DNA of 22,108 nucleotides. Source: a virus. A program made the position numbers and the translations under genes. This document shows, one piece after another, positions 2-18,692 of the stretch; the stretch's first letter is position 1, and the number at the start of each line of letters is the position of its first letter. The notes beneath the pieces are model-generated. The model had not been told where the DNA came from and made no database searches. It saw only the letters and a program-made list of their open reading frames with translations. The stretch lies in the IMG/VR virus record IMGVR_UViG_3300012582_000010, positions 1 through 22,108 of that record. One strand, written 5' to 3'.

Positions 2-193
2 CAAGCCGAGGTCGCAGGCAAACAACCGCCGTCCTATCAGGTATGGGCCAGGCGGTTCGACGGCACGCTCTATCAGGTACCGGGCCGCATCGCGTTCGAT
101 CCATCTAACCACATCGCCGATTATGGCGCGAAATTGGAACAGCGGCGGCAGGCGGTCAACTTCATGCAAATCAGCGGCATGCCGCAGCCATGA
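2..193 (+). CDS. C-terminal end of an unrecognised phage protein (partial)
   Basis: An open frame runs from the window edge to a TGA at 191-193 and gives the last 63 residues of a protein whose start lies outside the window. The visible part is mixed and soluble-looking, with many Q, R and A residues (VWARRFDGTLYQ, KLEQRRQAVNF) and no membrane segment. Its stop overlaps the ATG of the next gene (ATGA at 190-193), so the two are probably translationally coupled. By position just before a very large virion-type gene it is likely a structural or morphogenesis protein, but no family was recognised. Confidence 0.6.
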   Translation, partial: QAEVAGKQPPSYQVWARRFDGTLYQVPGRIAFDPSNHIADYGAKLEQRRQAVNFMQISGMPQP

Positions 194-3100
194 CAGCGAT
201 CCGCATCCCCGATGACGATCCGGGCTTCGGCTTGCGCACCGGCGAGGGGCAGGCGCCGGAATATCAGCCGCCAGGCGACATCGCCGATCCCGCGATCTGG
301 GGCGCCGCGTTCCGGCAATCGAATAGCGTTATCTCAGCCATCAAGTATATGCGCAATTCCGGCTCGTTTGCGCCGGTTCCGGATTACAATCCGCTGACCG
401 ACATCAAGGCGTGGGACAAGCCGAATTACTTCCTCGAACACGGTGACAAATTCATCGGCTCGCAATCGCCGGCGGAAACCCTTTCGATCAAAAACCAGAT
501 CGATAGCGAGGATGCCGACCGGCGCACGCTGGCAGCCAACGGCAAAATCGGTTTCGTCGCTCAGACCGTCGCCGGCGCACTCGACCCGACCATGCTGCTG
601 CCGGGCGGCGTGGCGATCGACGCCGCAAAGGGCGGGCTGATGTTCTCGAAAGCCGCGGTGCAGGTCGGCAAGGCCGGCCTGATGCAGACCGTCGCCCAAG
701 AGGCATTGCTGCATGCCAGTCAGCAAACCCGCACATTCGAGGAATCGGCCCTCAACGTCGCCAGTGGCACACTCTTGACGGCGCTGATCGGCGGCGGCGC
801 GGCATCGCTGCTATCGCCCGTGGAGCGCGCGGCGTTGGAAACCCGGCTGCATGCCGACCGCGCCGAGATGAATGAGCATGCGGGCAATCCTTCGACCGGA
901 GAGACGGCCCCTCAGATGCCTAGGGAGACTCAGGGAGAGGCCGTCCAGCCGCCCGCTGGTACGGGCATGGCACTGGCCGCCGGTGCGGCCGCGAGCGATA
1001 CCCGCAAGATTGAACTGGTGCCGTTCGGCCTCGACCAAATCCCCGGCGTGCGAACGGTGGTGGAAAAGACCTCGCCAATGCAACGGCTGTTCGGCGCCGA
1101 GAGTGTCACGGTTCGGCGGACGGCGGCGGACCTCGCGGAAACCTCGCTGCTCACCAAAGAGAACCTTGAGGGCAAGGTGACGACCGCTGGCCCGGCACTC
1201 GACCGCGAGGCCCGTCTGAATATCCATCAGTCACAGGTCGCGGTCGGCGATGAACTATCCCGGCTGTTTTCGGAGTATCGCTTCGGCGAGCAGAAACTCG
1301 CGCCGCGCACACGGGCCCTTTTCGACGATGCCACCGGCCGCGCACCCGAAGGCAAAATGTCATTCGACGAATTCAAGGAAGCCGTGAGTGACGCGGGCCG
1401 CAACAATGACCTGCGCGATATCCCGCAAGTGCAGATGGCCGCGCAGTTCATCCGCAACAAGGTGTTCGAGCCTTGGAAAAAGCGCGCCATCGACGCCGGG
1501 CTGCTACCGGAAGATGTCGGGGTCAAAACTGCCGACAGCTATGTGTCACGGCTCTACAACAAGCAGGCCATCGCAGCGAAACGGCCGGATTTCGTCAACC
1601 GGGTGACCGACTGGCTGGCCGGGGATCAGCAAGCCAAGGTGCAGTCACAGGAGAAGATCGGGCTATATCACGGCTCGCTGCAGGTCCCGGCCGATCAGAT
1701 CGATAAGCTGCAAGGTCGCATTCAAAAGCTGGAAACCGATGCCGATGTTATCGCGGCGCGGCAGGAGGAAACAACCCGGATCAACAAGGCCGCGAACCGT
1801 CGCGCCGAGACGCTGCGGACACGGGATCAAGAGACGCTGCCGCTCGAGAATGCCCGGGGCGGCGCCGTATTCGAGACGCTGGCGCGCAACCGCGGCAATC
1901 TGCTGGCTGATCGGGCATCCGCGAAACTGGCCGAGATCGAATCGCTGGAACAAAAGCTGGCGACCGAGATCCAGAACCATGATGCCATGCGGGCGAAGAT
2001 CGAAACCGAGATCGCCGCATGGGAAGGAAAATCGGCGAGCGAGGCCAAGGCCGCCTTGAAGGCGAGGGGGGAAGCCGAGAAGGCGCGCGAAGCCCAAAAG
2101 CAGGCTGGAACGTACAAAGGCAAGGATGAACGCCTGACGTCCGCCGACAAGGCGATCGACAAGGCGGTCAAGCGCATCCTGAAATCCGACCGCGACCTGC
2201 CGCGAGCCGAGCTCGAAAGCCGCGCCCAGGAGATCACCGATCGCATCATCGGCTCGCCGGATGGGCGATTGCCTTATGATCTCGGCATGGAGCATGGAAC
2301 CGCGTTCGGCGGCAGTGGCGAGGCTCCGCGCGGTGCACTGGCCGCGCGGGAATTCAACATCCCCGACGCCACAATCCGCGATTTCCTCGAGAATGACGCC
2401 GAGCATATCGTCGCGGCGCATCTGCGGACCATGGTGCCGGACGTGCTGTTGACCGAGAAATTCGGCGACACGCGGATGACCGAAGCGTTCCGTAAGATCA
2501 ATGACGAATATGCGGCGCTGGCAGATGCGGCAAAGTCAGACGCGGCGCGCACCAAACTGGAAAAGGATCGGCTGCGCGCAATCGATGACCTCGCCGCGAT
2601 CCGCGACCGCATCCGCGGCATCTACGGTATCTCGCCGGATGCCCCGATGCGTAATGCGGCGCGCGCCATGAATGTGCTGAAAAACTACAACGTATTGACG
2701 TCGATGGGCTCGGCTGCGCTGTCCTCGTTGCCGGACATGGCGGGCAGCATCATGCGGCATGGGCTGACTTCGACGTTCAACGATGCCTGGGCGCCATTTT
2801 TCAACATGCTGACGCGGCAATCCGACGTGTGGCAGGAGGCCGGGCGGCAATATCGTGCCATGGGTATCGCAGTGGAATCGGTGCTGGCATCTCGCCATCA
2901 TGCGCTGATGGACACGCTCGACACCTATCATCCGCAATCCCGCGTCGAGCGCACCATGCAATGGGCGACCGGCAAGTTCCAGTTCATCAATCTGCTGGCG
3001 CCATGGACGGATTTTGCCAAGATCAACGCCTCGATGGTTGCTGGCTCGGAGATCCTGCGGGCGGTGAAGACCTCGGCCGAGGGCACGGCATCGGCCCGCA

Positions 3101-3888
3101 TGCTCCGGACGCTGGGCGAATCCGGCATTGAGCCGCATATGGCCGCCCGTATCTCCAAGGCGTTCGAGGACGGCGGCGAAATCCGCGACGGTGTGCATCT
3201 TCCGAATACCGCGGATTGGACCGACAAAGAGGCACGGCGGGTATTCGAGGGGGCGGTCGCTCGGGATGCCGATATCGCCGTCGTGACGCCCGGGCAAGAA
3301 AAGCCCCTTTGGATGTCTCATCCGCTGTTATCCGTGCTCGGGCAGTTCAAATCCTTCACTGCAGCCGCGACCGAGCGCATCCTGATCTCGAACCTGCAGC
3401 GCCGCGATGCCCAAGTATTGCAGGGCATGATCTTCTCGCTGGGTTTGGGCATGCTGTCCTACAAGATCAACAGCGTGACCGGCGGGCAACCGGTCAGCGA
3501 CAAGCCGCAGGATTGGATCAAGGAAGCGGTGTCGAAAGCTAACCTGCTGGGCTGGGCGGAAGAAGCGAACGCCCTGGCATCTAAGGCCACGCGCGGCGGG
3601 GTCGACGTCTATCGCATGATCGGCGCCGACAAGCCGCTGTCCCGCTATGCCTCGCGCTCTGCGATGGATCAGCTTTTGGGCCCGACCGCGGGCAAGATCG
3701 GCGGCATTCTCGGCACTGTATCGGCGGCATCGAAACCCTCGGAATGGAACGAGGGCGATAGCAAAGCGCTCCGGCGGCTCGTGGCGGGGCAGAACGTGTT
3801 TTATGTCCGCCGGCTGTTCGATCAGATCGAGGCGTCCGGCAATAACACCTTTGGCATCCCCATGAAGGCCAAGCCCGAAAACCGCTAA
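190..3888 (+). CDS. very large (1232 aa) virion-type protein, possible internal/DNA-ejection protein
   Basis: This is the longest gene in the window, and its codon use is even throughout. The N-terminus is polar. Hydrophobic Gly/Ala-rich stretches lie near residues 121-147 and 190-209, followed by an Ala/Glu/Lys/Arg-rich region with coiled-coil character at about 500-525 and 573-645. Further hydrophobic stretches lie near 827-855 and 1077-1094. No transglycosylase or protease motif was recognised. Length, a helical coiled middle, hydrophobic patches, and position just before the lysis genes resemble large internal virion or DNA-ejection proteins of podoviruses and 'large polyvalent' phage proteins. 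This is inference from architecture. The start is set by the ATGA overlap with the preceding gene. A tape-measure protein is a weaker alternative because the neighbours do not look like tail genes. Confidence 0.72.
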   Translation: MTAIRIPDDDPGFGLRTGEGQAPEYQPPGDIADPAIWGAAFRQSNSVISAIKYMRNSGSFAPVPDYNPLTDIKAWDKPNYFLEHGDKFIGSQSPAETLSIKNQIDSEDADRRTLAANGKIGFVAQTVAGALDPTMLLPGGVAIDAAKGGLMFSKAAVQVGKAGLMQTVAQEALLHASQQTRTFEESALNVASGTLLTALIGGGAASLLSPVERAALETRLHADRAEMNEHAGNPSTGETAPQMPRETQGEAVQPPAGTGMALAAGAAASDTRKIELVPFGLDQIPGVRTVVEKTSPMQRLFGAESVTVRRTAADLAETSLLTKENLEGKVTTAGPALDREARLNIHQSQVAVGDELSRLFSEYRFGEQKLAPRTRALFDDATGRAPEGKMSFDEFKEAVSDAGRNNDLRDIPQVQMAAQFIRNKVFEPWKKRAIDAGLLPEDVGVKTADSYVSRLYNKQAIAAKRPDFVNRVTDWLAGDQQAKVQSQEKIGLYHGSLQVPADQIDKLQGRIQKLETDADVIAARQEETTRINKAANRRAETLRTRDQETLPLENARGGAVFETLARNRGNLLADRASAKLAEIESLEQKLATEIQNHDAMRAKIETEIAAWEGKSASEAKAALKARGEAEKAREAQKQAGTYKGKDERLTSADKAIDKAVKRILKSDRDLPRAELESRAQEITDRIIGSPDGRLPYDLGMEHGTAFGGSGEAPRGALAAREFNIPDATIRDFLENDAEHIVAAHLRTMVPDVLLTEKFGDTRMTEAFRKINDEYAALADAAKSDAARTKLEKDRLRAIDDLAAIRDRIRGIYGISPDAPMRNAARAMNVLKNYNVLTSMGSAALSSLPDMAGSIMRHGLTSTFNDAWAPFFNMLTRQSDVWQEAGRQYRAMGIAVESVLASRHHALMDTLDTYHPQSRVERTMQWATGKFQFINLLAPWTDFAKINASMVAGSEILRAVKTSAEGTASARMLRTLGESGIEPHMAARISKAFEDGGEIRDGVHLPNTADWTDKEARRVFEGAVARDADIAVVTPGQEKPLWMSHPLLSVLGQFKSFTAAATERILISNLQRRDAQVLQGMIFSLGLGMLSYKINSVTGGQPVSDKPQDWIKEAVSKANLLGWAEEANALASKATRGGVDVYRMIGADKPLSRYASRSAMDQLLGPTAGKIGGILGTVSAASKPSEWNEGDSKALRRLVAGQNVFYVRRLFDQIEASGNNTFGIPMKAKPENR

Positions 3889-16917: not shown

Positions 16918-17183
16918 CACGCCATCTCCAATCGACGTTCGATCTTCGCGCGCGCGCCGTCGATCATGCCCAAAACGACGATGAAATCGCCCGGCGTCAT
17001 GTTGCCATAGACCGGGTGAGGTCCGCCGAACGGCTGCTCGTGCAGATGCCAGAACCGGCGCATGTGCTCGGACCATGCACCATATTGCTTGCCGAGCATC
17101 GCGATCCGCGCCTGATCGTCAGGCAGGCGGGCGAGCGCCTTGTCGAGTTCGTCGCGGAGGAAGTCGGTGAGGCGGGCCGTCAT
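16917..17183 (-). CDS. phage protein, 88 aa, function unknown
   Basis: The ATG at 17183 overlaps the stop of the 87-residue gene (ATGA). The product reads MTARLTDFLRDELDKALARL then PDDQARIAMLGKQYGAWSEH, MRRFWHLHEQPFGGPHPVYG and NMTPGDFIVVLGMIDGARAK. The centre has aromatic and Gly residues, and the end is a helix. It is compact, largely helical and has no TM segment or metal motif. No family was recognised. It is the second gene after the left promoter, in the usual position of antirepressor or host-takeover genes. Confidence 0.65.
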   Translation of the reverse strand: MTARLTDFLRDELDKALARLPDDQARIAMLGKQYGAWSEHMRRFWHLHEQPFGGPHPVYGNMTPGDFIVVLGMIDGARAKIERRLEMA

Positions 17184-17443
17184 CGCAGCACCGCTTCGTA
17201 AGTCGCTTCGAAGATGTCCGGCTTGCAGGGATAGATTTCGCCCTTGACGCCGCGGATGATCCAATCGTCGGGATCGGCGCGCATCACGCCTTCTAGCGTG
17301 CTGATCAGGATGGTATTGCCGGGCCCGACATCGTAATTGCTCATGACGAGCCAGAGAGGAATTGCCTTGTCCTCTGCCTCGACGCTCAGTGGCTTCCACT
17401 GAAACGCTTCAATCACTACCGGCTTTTTGCGGAATTGGGCCAT
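17180..17443 (-). CDS. phage protein of the 'YPCKPDIFEATYE' type, 87 aa
   Basis: The product starts MAQFRKKPVVIEAFQW and ends with PDDWIIRGVKGEIYPCKPDI then FEATYEAVLR. This signature (FRKKPVVIEA...GxWIIxGVKGExYPCKPDIFxxTYE) is very common in tailed phages and prophages, annotated only as hypothetical. The fold is probably a small beta barrel with a conserved Cys-Lys-Pro loop. AGGAGAAC lies five bases before the ATG at 17443 and is one arm of the inverted repeat at 17448-17467. It is the first gene of the left early operon. No biochemical role is known. Confidence 0.85.
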   Translation of the reverse strand: MAQFRKKPVVIEAFQWKPLSVEAEDKAIPLWLVMSNYDVGPGNTILISTLEGVMRADPDDWIIRGVKGEIYPCKPDIFEATYEAVLR

Positions 17444-17447
17444 GGGC

Positions 17448-17467
17448 GTTCTCCTGATGAGGAGAAC
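17448..17467. repeat. 8-bp inverted repeat overlapping a ribosome site
   Basis: GTTCTCCT (17448-17455) and AGGAGAAC (17460-17467) are perfect reverse complements with a 4-base spacer (GATG). In leftward RNA the arm nearest the gene carries the AGGAG ribosome site of the gene starting at 17443. The predicted start point at about 17461 would omit most of the other arm, so RNA hairpin formation would need a longer transcript, for example from the repressor gene. Confidence 0.6.
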
Positions 17468-17496
17468 ACCATAAATCCGGTAAGCCTACCGGTCAA
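17468..17496 (-). promoter_or_regulatory. left early promoter (TTGACC-17-TATGGT)
   Basis: On the leftward strand TTGACC (17496-17491) and TATGGT (17473-17468) are 17 bases apart. Initiation is expected near 17461, 18 bases before the first gene ATG at 17443. Operator O1 (17478-17491) fills the spacer, so a bound repressor would block polymerase. This is the counterpart of lambda PL and probably drives the operon from 17443 to 12751. Confidence 0.7.
17478..17491. promoter_or_regulatory. operator O1 (CGGTA-AGCC-TACCG)
   Basis: A 14-bp imperfect palindrome with perfect five-base half-sites CGGTA and TACCG around four bases. It lies in the spacer of the left promoter. Together with O2 it is a perfect inverted pair, because the two 14-mers are reverse complements of each other. 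The probable ligand is the XRE repressor encoded immediately upstream. Confidence 0.75.
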
Positions 17497-17503
17497 GCCA
17501 AAT

Positions 17504-17517
17504 CGGTAGGCTTACCG
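17504..17517. promoter_or_regulatory. operator O2 (CGGTA-GGCT-TACCG), containing the repressor stop codon
   Basis: This operator lies 26 bases (centre to centre) from O1, just upstream of the left promoter -35 box, so a repressor pair could bind cooperatively. The TAA stop of the repressor gene (17512-17514 read leftward) is inside it, so coding and operator functions share bases. A T-run follows on the + strand, but no rightward transcript needs ending here. Confidence 0.72.
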
Positions 17518-17829
17518 ATTTTTTCTTTTCCGTACCGGTTGAGGCGGGGAAAGCCGCTCGTCGAGGATACGATTGACCCGTTCATCGAAGTCCTCGTCCG
17601 CTGCAATGGCACCAGGCGGCCGCAGAAGCTCCCAGGAGCTTGTTCCGAGAGCCTTGGCTACCTTCTCAAGGGTGTCCAGCGTCCACATGCCCTTAAGCTC
17701 GCCAGAGGCATAGCGGCGCAGGTTCCGGATGGCGTCAACGCTGCCAGATCGCTTCGATACGGCGTTGTCGGTCGTCTTTTGGACTCGGATAAGCCGGTCG
17801 ATGTTGTTCAATAATACTTTGAGATCCAT
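17512..17829 (-). CDS. XRE-type phage repressor, 105 aa (CI-like)
   Basis: The ATG at 17829 gives 105 residues: MDLKVLLNNIDRLIRVQKTT, then DNAVSKRSGSVDAIRNLRR, ASGELKGMWTLDTLEKVAKA and LGTSSWELLRPPG. The first 70 residues form a lambda-repressor-like helix-turn-helix (helices around 7-18, 21-28, 31-40 and 49-60, then 'LGTSSWELL'). The C-terminus is a charged tail (ERLSPPQPVRKRKNR) and there is no S24 autoprotease domain, so SOS-type self-cleavage is not expected. No ribosome site precedes the ATG, so it may be leaderless, as lambda cI is. Five CGGTA-N4-TACCG sites flank the gene. A Cro-type role is less likely, because the rightward gene is in the Cro position. Confidence 0.82.
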   Translation of the reverse strand: MDLKVLLNNIDRLIRVQKTTDNAVSKRSGSVDAIRNLRRYASGELKGMWTLDTLEKVAKALGTSSWELLRPPGAIAADEDFDERVNRILDERLSPPQPVRKRKNR

Positions 17830-17831
17830 CC

Positions 17832-17845
17832 CGGTAGAATAACCG
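17832..17845. promoter_or_regulatory. operator O3 (CGGTA-GAAT-AACCG)
   Basis: This site has one mismatch to the TACCG half and lies two bases upstream of the repressor ATG. Repressor bound here would block its own leftward transcription or leaderless translation start region, giving autoregulation. The repressor promoter itself cannot be placed with confidence. Confidence 0.6.
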
Positions 17846-17865
17846 GAACTCACAGACTGAGCATT

Positions 17866-17879
17866 CGGCAAGTTTACCG
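17866..17879. promoter_or_regulatory. operator O5 (CGGCA-AGTT-TACCG)
   Basis: This site has one mismatch (CGGCA) in the left half and ends one base before the TTGACA -35 box of the right promoter (17880-17885). It is 24 bases centre to centre from O4, so the two lie on about the same face of the helix. Binding would interfere with the right promoter and possibly activate the leftward repressor promoter. Confidence 0.6.
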
Positions 17880-17908
17880 TTGACAAGACCGGTACGTTTA
17901 CCGATATT
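17880..17908 (+). promoter_or_regulatory. right early promoter (TTGACA-17-GATATT)
   Basis: A perfect -35 box TTGACA (17880-17885) is followed after 17 bases by GATATT (17903-17908). Initiation would fall at about 17914-17916, at or next to the ATG of the rightward gene (17915), so this RNA would be leaderless or nearly so. O4 overlaps the spacer and the first base of the -10 box. Confidence 0.68.
17890..17903. promoter_or_regulatory. operator O4 (CGGTA-CGTT-TACCG)
   Basis: A 14-bp site with perfect half-sites lies in the spacer of the right promoter and touches the -10 box. It is the best right-side match to the consensus shared with O1 and O2. Repressor bound here should prevent rightward early transcription. 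Confidence 0.73.
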
Positions 17909-17914
17909 GCGCCC

Positions 17915-18169
17915 ATGTCAGCCATAGACGAACTGCTTTGCGTCGCACGCCGATACGGGGAAATCGAAGAAGTGCCCCTGTCGACTGTATCCTCGCGCGT
18001 GCTCAATGACGGCAAGAAGCTCCGCGCATTGGAGGAGGGCGCCGACATCACGGTCGGACGACTTGAAGATGCGCTCCGTTGGTTCTCGGACAATTGGCCG
18101 GATGGGGAATGGCCCTCCGATGTACCTCGTCCCTGTCGATCTGCGGAAATTATTGAGGCCCGAGCATGA
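17915..18169 (+). CDS. small regulator in the Cro position, 84 aa
   Basis: The ATG at 17915 lies at the predicted right promoter start point, so the message may be leaderless. The product reads MSAIDELLCVARRYGEIEEV then PLSTVSSRVLNDGKKLRALE, EGADITVGRLEDALRWFSDN and WPDGEWPSDVPRP. The segment PLSTVSSRVLNDGKKLRAL...ADITVGRLEDALRWFSDNWP is a pattern I recall from rhizobial prophages, next to phage repressors. A helix-turn-helix is likely in its first half. By position it resembles Cro or an anti-repressor that could bind the same operators. Function not proven. Confidence 0.7.
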   Translation: MSAIDELLCVARRYGEIEEVPLSTVSSRVLNDGKKLRALEEGADITVGRLEDALRWFSDNWPDGEWPSDVPRPCRSAEIIEARA

Positions 18170-18404
18170 CGTCGCTTCGGGAAACGCACCACAACACCCA
18201 TCTTGCCGCCCCACCGCTCTGTGACCGGAGCTGTTCATTATCGTGGCGACATCGAAGCACAACTTTGGCGAATGTGAAATTAAAATATCTCGCGTATGTC
18301 GAGGTTCCGCGTGTGGCTTTTGCGAAGTCACATTCTGTTGTTGAGCAAGAATCAACGTTGACATTTTTTGCGTCCGATTTTGTTGCGTCAGTGGGGGTTG
18401 CGTC
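18170..18404. promoter_or_regulatory. intergenic stretch with 15-base-period TTGCGTC repeats and possible promoter
   Basis: No convincing gene was found in these 235 bases. A perfect TTGACA lies at 18358-18363, but the best -10 17 bases on (TGTTGC) is poor. The heptamer TTGCGTC occurs at 18368-18374, 18383-18389 and 18398-18404, with start-to-start spacing of exactly 15 bases, ending at the ATG of the next gene. A fourth copy is at 18705-18711 after that gene. These may be binding sites of a regulator or part of an anti-termination signal. Confidence 0.4.
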
Positions 18405-18692
18405 ATGGGGACAGTATCGGCGGAGGCGCGCGCGGAAAGTAGCCCAATCGAACGGACGATTGTCAGCGATGACGAACAGATGTTCGGTTCGGTACTTTCC
18501 GATGTCGCCAGAATGCTTTGGCCACAGAAAACCGCAGCGAATATCGCGGCTGTCGCCAATTGTTCGGTGCGAGCGGCTGAATTCTATCTCGCCGGTGACC
18601 GCGATTGGTCCGGCGATGCGCTCACAGCGATCGTTGCCGAAATTCTCAAGCGTCACGCGATGCGGAACGTGAAGATCGTCAAGCGTCGCTAG
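18405..18692 (+). CDS. small HTH-like phage protein, 95 aa
   Basis: GGGGG lies seven bases before the ATG at 18405. The centre reads MFGSVLSDVARMLWPQKTAA then NIAAVANCSVRAAEFYLAGD and RDWSGDALTAIVAEILKR. The pattern 'LWPxKTAxxIAxxANCSxRAAxxxLxGxxxxxxxALxAIVxEILKR' is a helix-turn-helix-like form found in rhizobial phages, in which helix 2 and 3 read TAANIAAVANCSVRAAEFYL. It could be a transcription activator of the right operon or a replication accessory. It overlaps a spurious 168-codon frame in another phase. Confidence 0.75.
   Translation: MGTVSAEARAESSPIERTIVSDDEQMFGSVLSDVARMLWPQKTAANIAAVANCSVRAAEFYLAGDRDWSGDALTAIVAEILKRHAMRNVKIVKRR

Follow-up and report, generated by a model that had tools for sequence, protein, structure and literature searches.

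The region of the window that holds five copies of the palindrome CGGTA-N4-TACCG is very probably the immunity region of a temperate phage, organised as a lambda-like switch around a short repressor. By the window we mean the whole stretch of DNA that was analysed, a virus record of 22,108 bp that is itself a fragment. The repressor gene and a cro-like gene diverge from an operator region that lies between them, in which three right operator sites (OR) overlap both promoters, while two left sites (OL) are found at the left promoter, the promoters being assigned by consensus (Table 1).

We propose that the short repressor, which presumably sits on each 14-bp palindrome as a dimer, would bind O1 and O2 to shut off the left promoter PL, and O4 and O5 to shut off the right promoter PR, from which cro is expressed. 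From O5 it would probably activate its own promoter, and at O3, where it would cover its own -10 box, it would limit its own synthesis. The Cro-like protein, first made from PR, would probably bind the same sites and turn the repressor off. A further layer may act on RNA: transcripts reading leftward out of the repressor gene would fold into a hairpin that covers the ribosome-binding site of the first left gene, which would then stay untranslated, while RNA started at PL would lack the 5' arm of this hairpin and be translated.

This provides an operator sequence and a map for a large phage family whose repressor and Cro-like protein are mostly annotated as hypothetical, and it gives a likely role to phrog_7669. 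The same operator layout is found with repressors that carry an autoprotease domain and with repressors that do not, so that the effect of SOS-inducibility on a lambda-type switch becomes directly testable. The PL leader hairpin is likewise a testable further layer of control, and a related switch is present in a cultured phage, RHph_N3_2 of Rhizobium.

Table 1. Positions of the switch features in the window
Feature	Position	Strand	Sequence or family	Remark
First gene of left operon	17180..17443	-	phrog_419 family	function not known
PL leader hairpin	17448..17467	-	GTTCTCCT-CATC-AGGAGAAC	the Shine-Dalgarno of the left gene lies in its 3' arm
Left promoter PL	17468..17496	-	TTGACC-17-TATGGT	
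O1 (OL)	17478..17491	.	CGGTAAGCCTACCG	in the -35/-10 spacer of PL
O2 (OL)	17504..17517	.	CGGTAGGCTTACCG	
Short HTH repressor, 105 aa	17512..17829	-	predicted recognition helix DAIRNLRR	no S24 domain
O3 (OR3-like)	17832..17845	.	CGGTAGAATAACCG	covers putative repressor -10
Putative repressor-promoter -10	17836..17841	-	TATTCT	within O3, six bases before the ATG
[AG]ATGC-type block	17861..17865	-		adjoins O5, where the -35 of the repressor promoter would be expected; mostly conserved
O5 (OR2-like)	17866..17879	.	CGGCAAGTTTACCG	flush with the PR -35
Right promoter PR	17880..17908	+	TTGACA-17-GATATT	
O4 (OR1-like)	17890..17903	.	CGGTACGTTTACCG	in the -35/-10 spacer of PR
Cro-like protein, 84 aa	17915..18169	+	phrog_7669, E 2.7e-21	

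Operator sites and their conserved geometry

The sequence-only reading from which we started had placed five sites, three perfect and two with a single mismatch, had put O3 two bases from the repressor ATG and had set O1 and O4 inside the 17-bp spacers of the two promoters. All of this was confirmed: the coordinates hold for the five sites, O1, O2 and O4 are the perfect copies, O3 and O5 have one mismatch each, and the A of the repressor ATG is position 17829. The numbering adopted at that stage does not follow the DNA, along which the sites come as O3-O5-O4, equivalent to OR3-OR2-OR1. With up to one mismatch allowed, 0.79 matches are expected by chance in the 22,108-bp record and 0.015 in the 426 bp that the five sites span, and the Poisson probability of at least five sites in 426 bp is about 6e-12. 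The operator reading was to be abandoned if the motif proved frequent genome-wide; in the phage record, no other site with at most one mismatch occurs. A literature search found no publication on a CGGTA-N4-TACCG operator.

The five-site map is common to the window and 10 further phages, which together make a clade of 11. Three phages with the same five sites in the same places, the nearest ones, were found by protein search alone, and the operator itself was used to find 6 of the 11 members and most of the relatives outside the clade. When viral contigs were scanned for two perfect sites 8-18 bp apart, 53 stretches were obtained, and more than half of them have a gene of the Cro family close by as well (more than 25 phages); a few of the others are iteron-like arrays or unrelated. 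Most of these paired-site phages have longer repressors, several of them with a Peptidase_S24 domain. Two stretches came from a search for the 26-bp OL spacing in one genome per species. L071 is a clade member from a different collection, retrieved through the OL spacing alone, and L072, whose flanks have no switch-like layout, was taken as a chance match. The contig of L071 (SCSV01000188.1) is binned with a MAG of the actinobacterium Salinibacterium and is possibly mis-binned. Long arrays of at least 10 copies of CGGTA-N4-TACCG with a 24-bp spacing were seen in L019 and L051; they are iteron-like and have no Cro family nearby.

The clade is monophyletic on the repressor HTH (98/91) and on Cro (92/92), and its geometry is strict. 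The OL sites are 26 bp apart, the OR sites 34 and 24 bp apart, and the repressor and cro starts are separated by 86 bp; counted from the A of the repressor ATG, O3 begins at +3, O5 at +37, the right -35 at +51, O4 at +61 and the cro ATG at +86. L029 has a degenerate O3. Phages with S24-type repressors keep the same offsets within a few bases. The 20-bp stretch that separates O3 from O5 has a variable sequence and, within the clade, a fixed length. O4 and both OL sites are perfect in all 11 members, whereas a single mismatch is present in O5 in 11/11 and in O3 in 10/11. Such conservation of the pattern suggests that the sites are ranked in affinity in a fixed way, as they are in lambda. That number, order, spacing and mismatch placement are kept while the intervening DNA has diverged supports an operator function for these sites, as judged from the sequences. 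The CGGTA half of O2 has a second role that had escaped the sequence-only reading: read leftward, it is the last Arg codon (CGG) and the stop codon (TAA) of the repressor, and CGG TAR stands as final codon and stop at the same offset in the whole clade (11/11).

PL and PR are the only two sigma-70-like promoters found in 17380-18450, with O1 overlapping the final base of the PL -35 and O4 the first base of the PR -10. The -10 of the repressor promoter is conserved in position and weak in sequence, TATTCT in the window becoming CATTCT and similar in relatives, a point against the switch reading. The repressor and cro ATGs both come six bases after a -10-like hexamer, so both mRNAs are predicted to be leaderless, with transcription starts predicted from the hexamers alone. 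The cI and cro transcripts of phage PY54 were mapped as leaderless, and lambda cI is also known to be so (PMC4488713). The centre of O5 lies about 43 bp upstream of the repressor ATG, which is the predicted start, and this distance would fit activation from the middle OR site.

A short repressor and its Cro-like partner

The repressor ORF is real: in the nearest phages, its homologues begin at the same start and share 64-78% identity with it. Starts upstream of 17829 were rejected: they would run through OR, and conservation begins at 17829. The AlphaFold2 model (pLDDT 78) has an HTH fold in which helix 3 comprises residues 33-42, and Foldseek matches it to the DNA-binding domain of P22 C2, to 434 Cro and to DdrO (probability 1.00, E about 0.03-0.05); on this model, the protein has the Cro/C1-type HTH fold of the XRE family. 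PF13443 matches weakly in 4 of 11 relatives. The 105-aa protein of the window has no Pfam match, Peptidase_S24 included, and profile searches of the PDB by sequence returned unrelated helical matches only.

The repressor had been described beforehand as an unrelated small protein without autoprotease. The second half of this description stands; the first does not, since its HTH and the N-terminal domains of S24-type CI repressors in sister phages are homologous. In four of these (L042, L025, L010 and L030), Peptidase_S24 scores above the curated cut-off, and sister phages of this type share the operator and the Cro family with the window. Further repressors that are short or lack S24 (L009, L018 and L043) sit in other Cro groups, so the absence of S24 probably arose more than once. 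L009 is the cultured phage RHph_N3_2; its S24-less repressor has 141 aa, and its related five-site layout consists of two CGGTAAAAAAACCG sites left of an opposed gene and three sites at OR.

These phages look temperate, given that an integrase is encoded in 4 of 10 clade records (that of the window falls below the curated cut-off). An S24 domain was searched for throughout 10 clade records and was found in none. A repressor that lacks it would not be expected to be cleaved during the SOS response, and induction of the prophage would then be either passive, as is assumed for P2, or due to an antirepressor. What fits best is a switch of lambda type whose repressor, like that of P2 or those of Gifsy, cannot be cleaved.

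A variant of this reading, which does not exclude it, is that induction of the non-cleavable repressor comes from a LexA-controlled antirepressor whose gene lies outside the immunity region; we consider this a tentative possibility, with the greater weight against it. Phage 186 is induced through such an antirepressor. Gifsy offers a precedent too, as its repressors of about 150 aa are not cleaved and are inactivated by LexA-controlled antirepressors (PMC3121763), and since the window is a fragment, the antirepressor gene could be missing from it. On the other side, the alphaproteobacterial LexA box GTTC-N7-GTTC does not occur in the window. Relatives have 0-2 boxes per record, near the reversed-pattern control and in places that are not shared, and SOS control via an alphaproteobacterial LexA was rejected with boxes at this chance level. 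An antirepressor or autoprotease close by was also rejected, for no gene but the repressor and cro is common to all 11 phages near the region. Phages that lack SOS induction depend on spontaneous induction (PMC7708051).

That the short repressor reads the CGGTA sites is supported by co-variation of its predicted recognition helix with the operator. An Arg-Asn pair (DAIRN and similar) is present in the repressors of 34 of 34 CGGTA phages and in one (L012) of the 7 Cro-family phages without CGGTA sites, counts that were read by eye and are not corrected for phylogeny. It could be argued that the sites serve mainly the Cro-like protein, the short HTH protein being an accessory regulator or acting elsewhere, as the Cro family is the one protein common to all CGGTA switch phages and repressor sequences vary widely. 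We find this improbable: the recognition-helix residues of the repressor track the operator sequence, in the clade O3 lies tight against the start of the repressor gene and O2 against its stop, and no repressor-like gene other than the short one stands at the expected place.

The Cro-like protein itself belongs to a family of unknown function in its annotation. Its homologues adjoin CI-type repressor genes in Rhizobium, Aurantimonas, Pelagibaca, Thiobacimonas, Agrobacterium, Acetobacter and Rhodobacter-group phages. The AlphaFold2 model is that of a confident small helical protein (pLDDT 87); its structural matches to known HTH proteins are weak, which counts against the switch reading. Downstream of cro, 18405-18692 encodes a small protein that looks HTH-like by eye and has relatives in 6 of 11 clade members; it is possibly a CII analogue. 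Far from the switch, 190-3888 encodes a 1232-aa protein that resembles internal virion proteins with an endolysin domain (phrog_342), which suggests, by its sequence, that this integrase-bearing phage has a podovirus-like virion. Rfam and tRNA scans of the 22,108-bp window gave no matches.

The PL leader hairpin

Between the PL -10 and the start of the left gene, an RNA hairpin that had been overlooked is predicted in all 11 clade members, with the Shine-Dalgarno (SD) in or next to its 3' arm in each. The arm sequences are mostly unrelated between phages, yet their complementarity is kept. Against dinucleotide shuffles, the combined Fisher p is 5e-13, phages being treated as independent, and the hairpins of L005 and L071 are weak individually. 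When 5' arms are exchanged among the phages, half of the folding energy is lost (-13.8 to -7.0 kcal/mol, p<1e-5). Since the predicted PL start falls within the hairpin, the full structure is probably formed by read-through RNA only. By folding, the mean unpaired fraction of the SD is 0.11 on read-through RNA versus 0.40 on PL RNA taken to start at the seventh base after the -10 (Wilcoxon p 0.01); in L048, the predicted exposure does not rise in PL-started RNA. Several longer-repressor phages carry a similar hairpin, and the ORF upstream of PL is mostly codirectional there, in an exploratory survey with ORFs called by length.

In the window, this inverted repeat is a perfect palindrome adjoining PL, and it might be a DNA site for another regulator and not an RNA hairpin. 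We hold this to be unlikely, as the arms differ between phages with complementarity kept and the SD always lies in or next to the 3' arm. Broader is the idea, for and against which we weigh the evidence evenly, that many phages of the family have a read-through lock at PL, in which only PL-started RNA expresses the first left (lytic) gene, and that the clade switch is extremely compact. Under this idea, the lock hairpin would drift and stay complementary, the repressor transcript would enter the left operon harmlessly, and in the clade the operator would encode the end of the repressor and SOS cleavage would have been given up. As for O1-O2, exact reverse complements in the window with a T run on the + strand after O2, a transcription terminator in place of operators is hardly credible, for complementarity of the central four bases is lost in L005-L007 and the T run is on the strand that has no upstream gene.

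Comparison with known systems

The likeness to lambda that had been proposed is supported by the conserved number, order and spacing of sites that are operators by sequence. As in lambda, cI-like and cro-like genes diverge, the middle of three OR sites touches both promoters, the OR1-like site is perfect, OL lies at the left promoter and the repressor mRNA is predicted to be leaderless. The differences are a 14-bp operator of CGGTA-N4-TACCG type, two OL sites, a 34-bp O3-O5 gap, an OL inside the repressor stop codon, a Cro-like protein of another sequence family (phrog_7669), and a repressor without the C-terminal Peptidase_S24 of self-cleaving S24/LexA-type CI.

P2 has a C repressor of about 100 aa that has no autoprotease and is not SOS-inducible; to our knowledge, it has no lambda-like arrangement of OL and a three-site OR. 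GfoR and GtgR of Gifsy are also small HTH repressors of lambdoid phages that do not cleave themselves (PMC3121763), but the protein here is about 45 aa shorter, its operators are other ones and no LexA-linked antirepressor was found. Mycobacteriophage BPs gp33-103 is an active repressor of 103 residues, with an operator between the PR -10 and -35 and a second site near the repressor gene; unlike here, it is shortened by integration, and its operators, two half sites, are dispersed across the genome (PMC4557955). Rhizobium phage 16-3, an alphaproteobacterial phage likened here by operator naming only, has left and right operators, of which four are named (oL1, oL2, oR1 and oR2); in the same work, the operators of phiLM21-like prophages are stated to be not identified (PMC12429752).

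For the PL hairpin, we would regard the leader of T4 gene e as the closest precedent. There, a hairpin covers the Shine-Dalgarno on longer transcripts, as folding indicates here, and transcripts from the near promoter, which lack the 5' arm, are translated, as is predicted here (PMC3014915). The difference is that the present hairpin lies at the PL of a temperate phage, where the upstream RNA is the lysogenic transcript.
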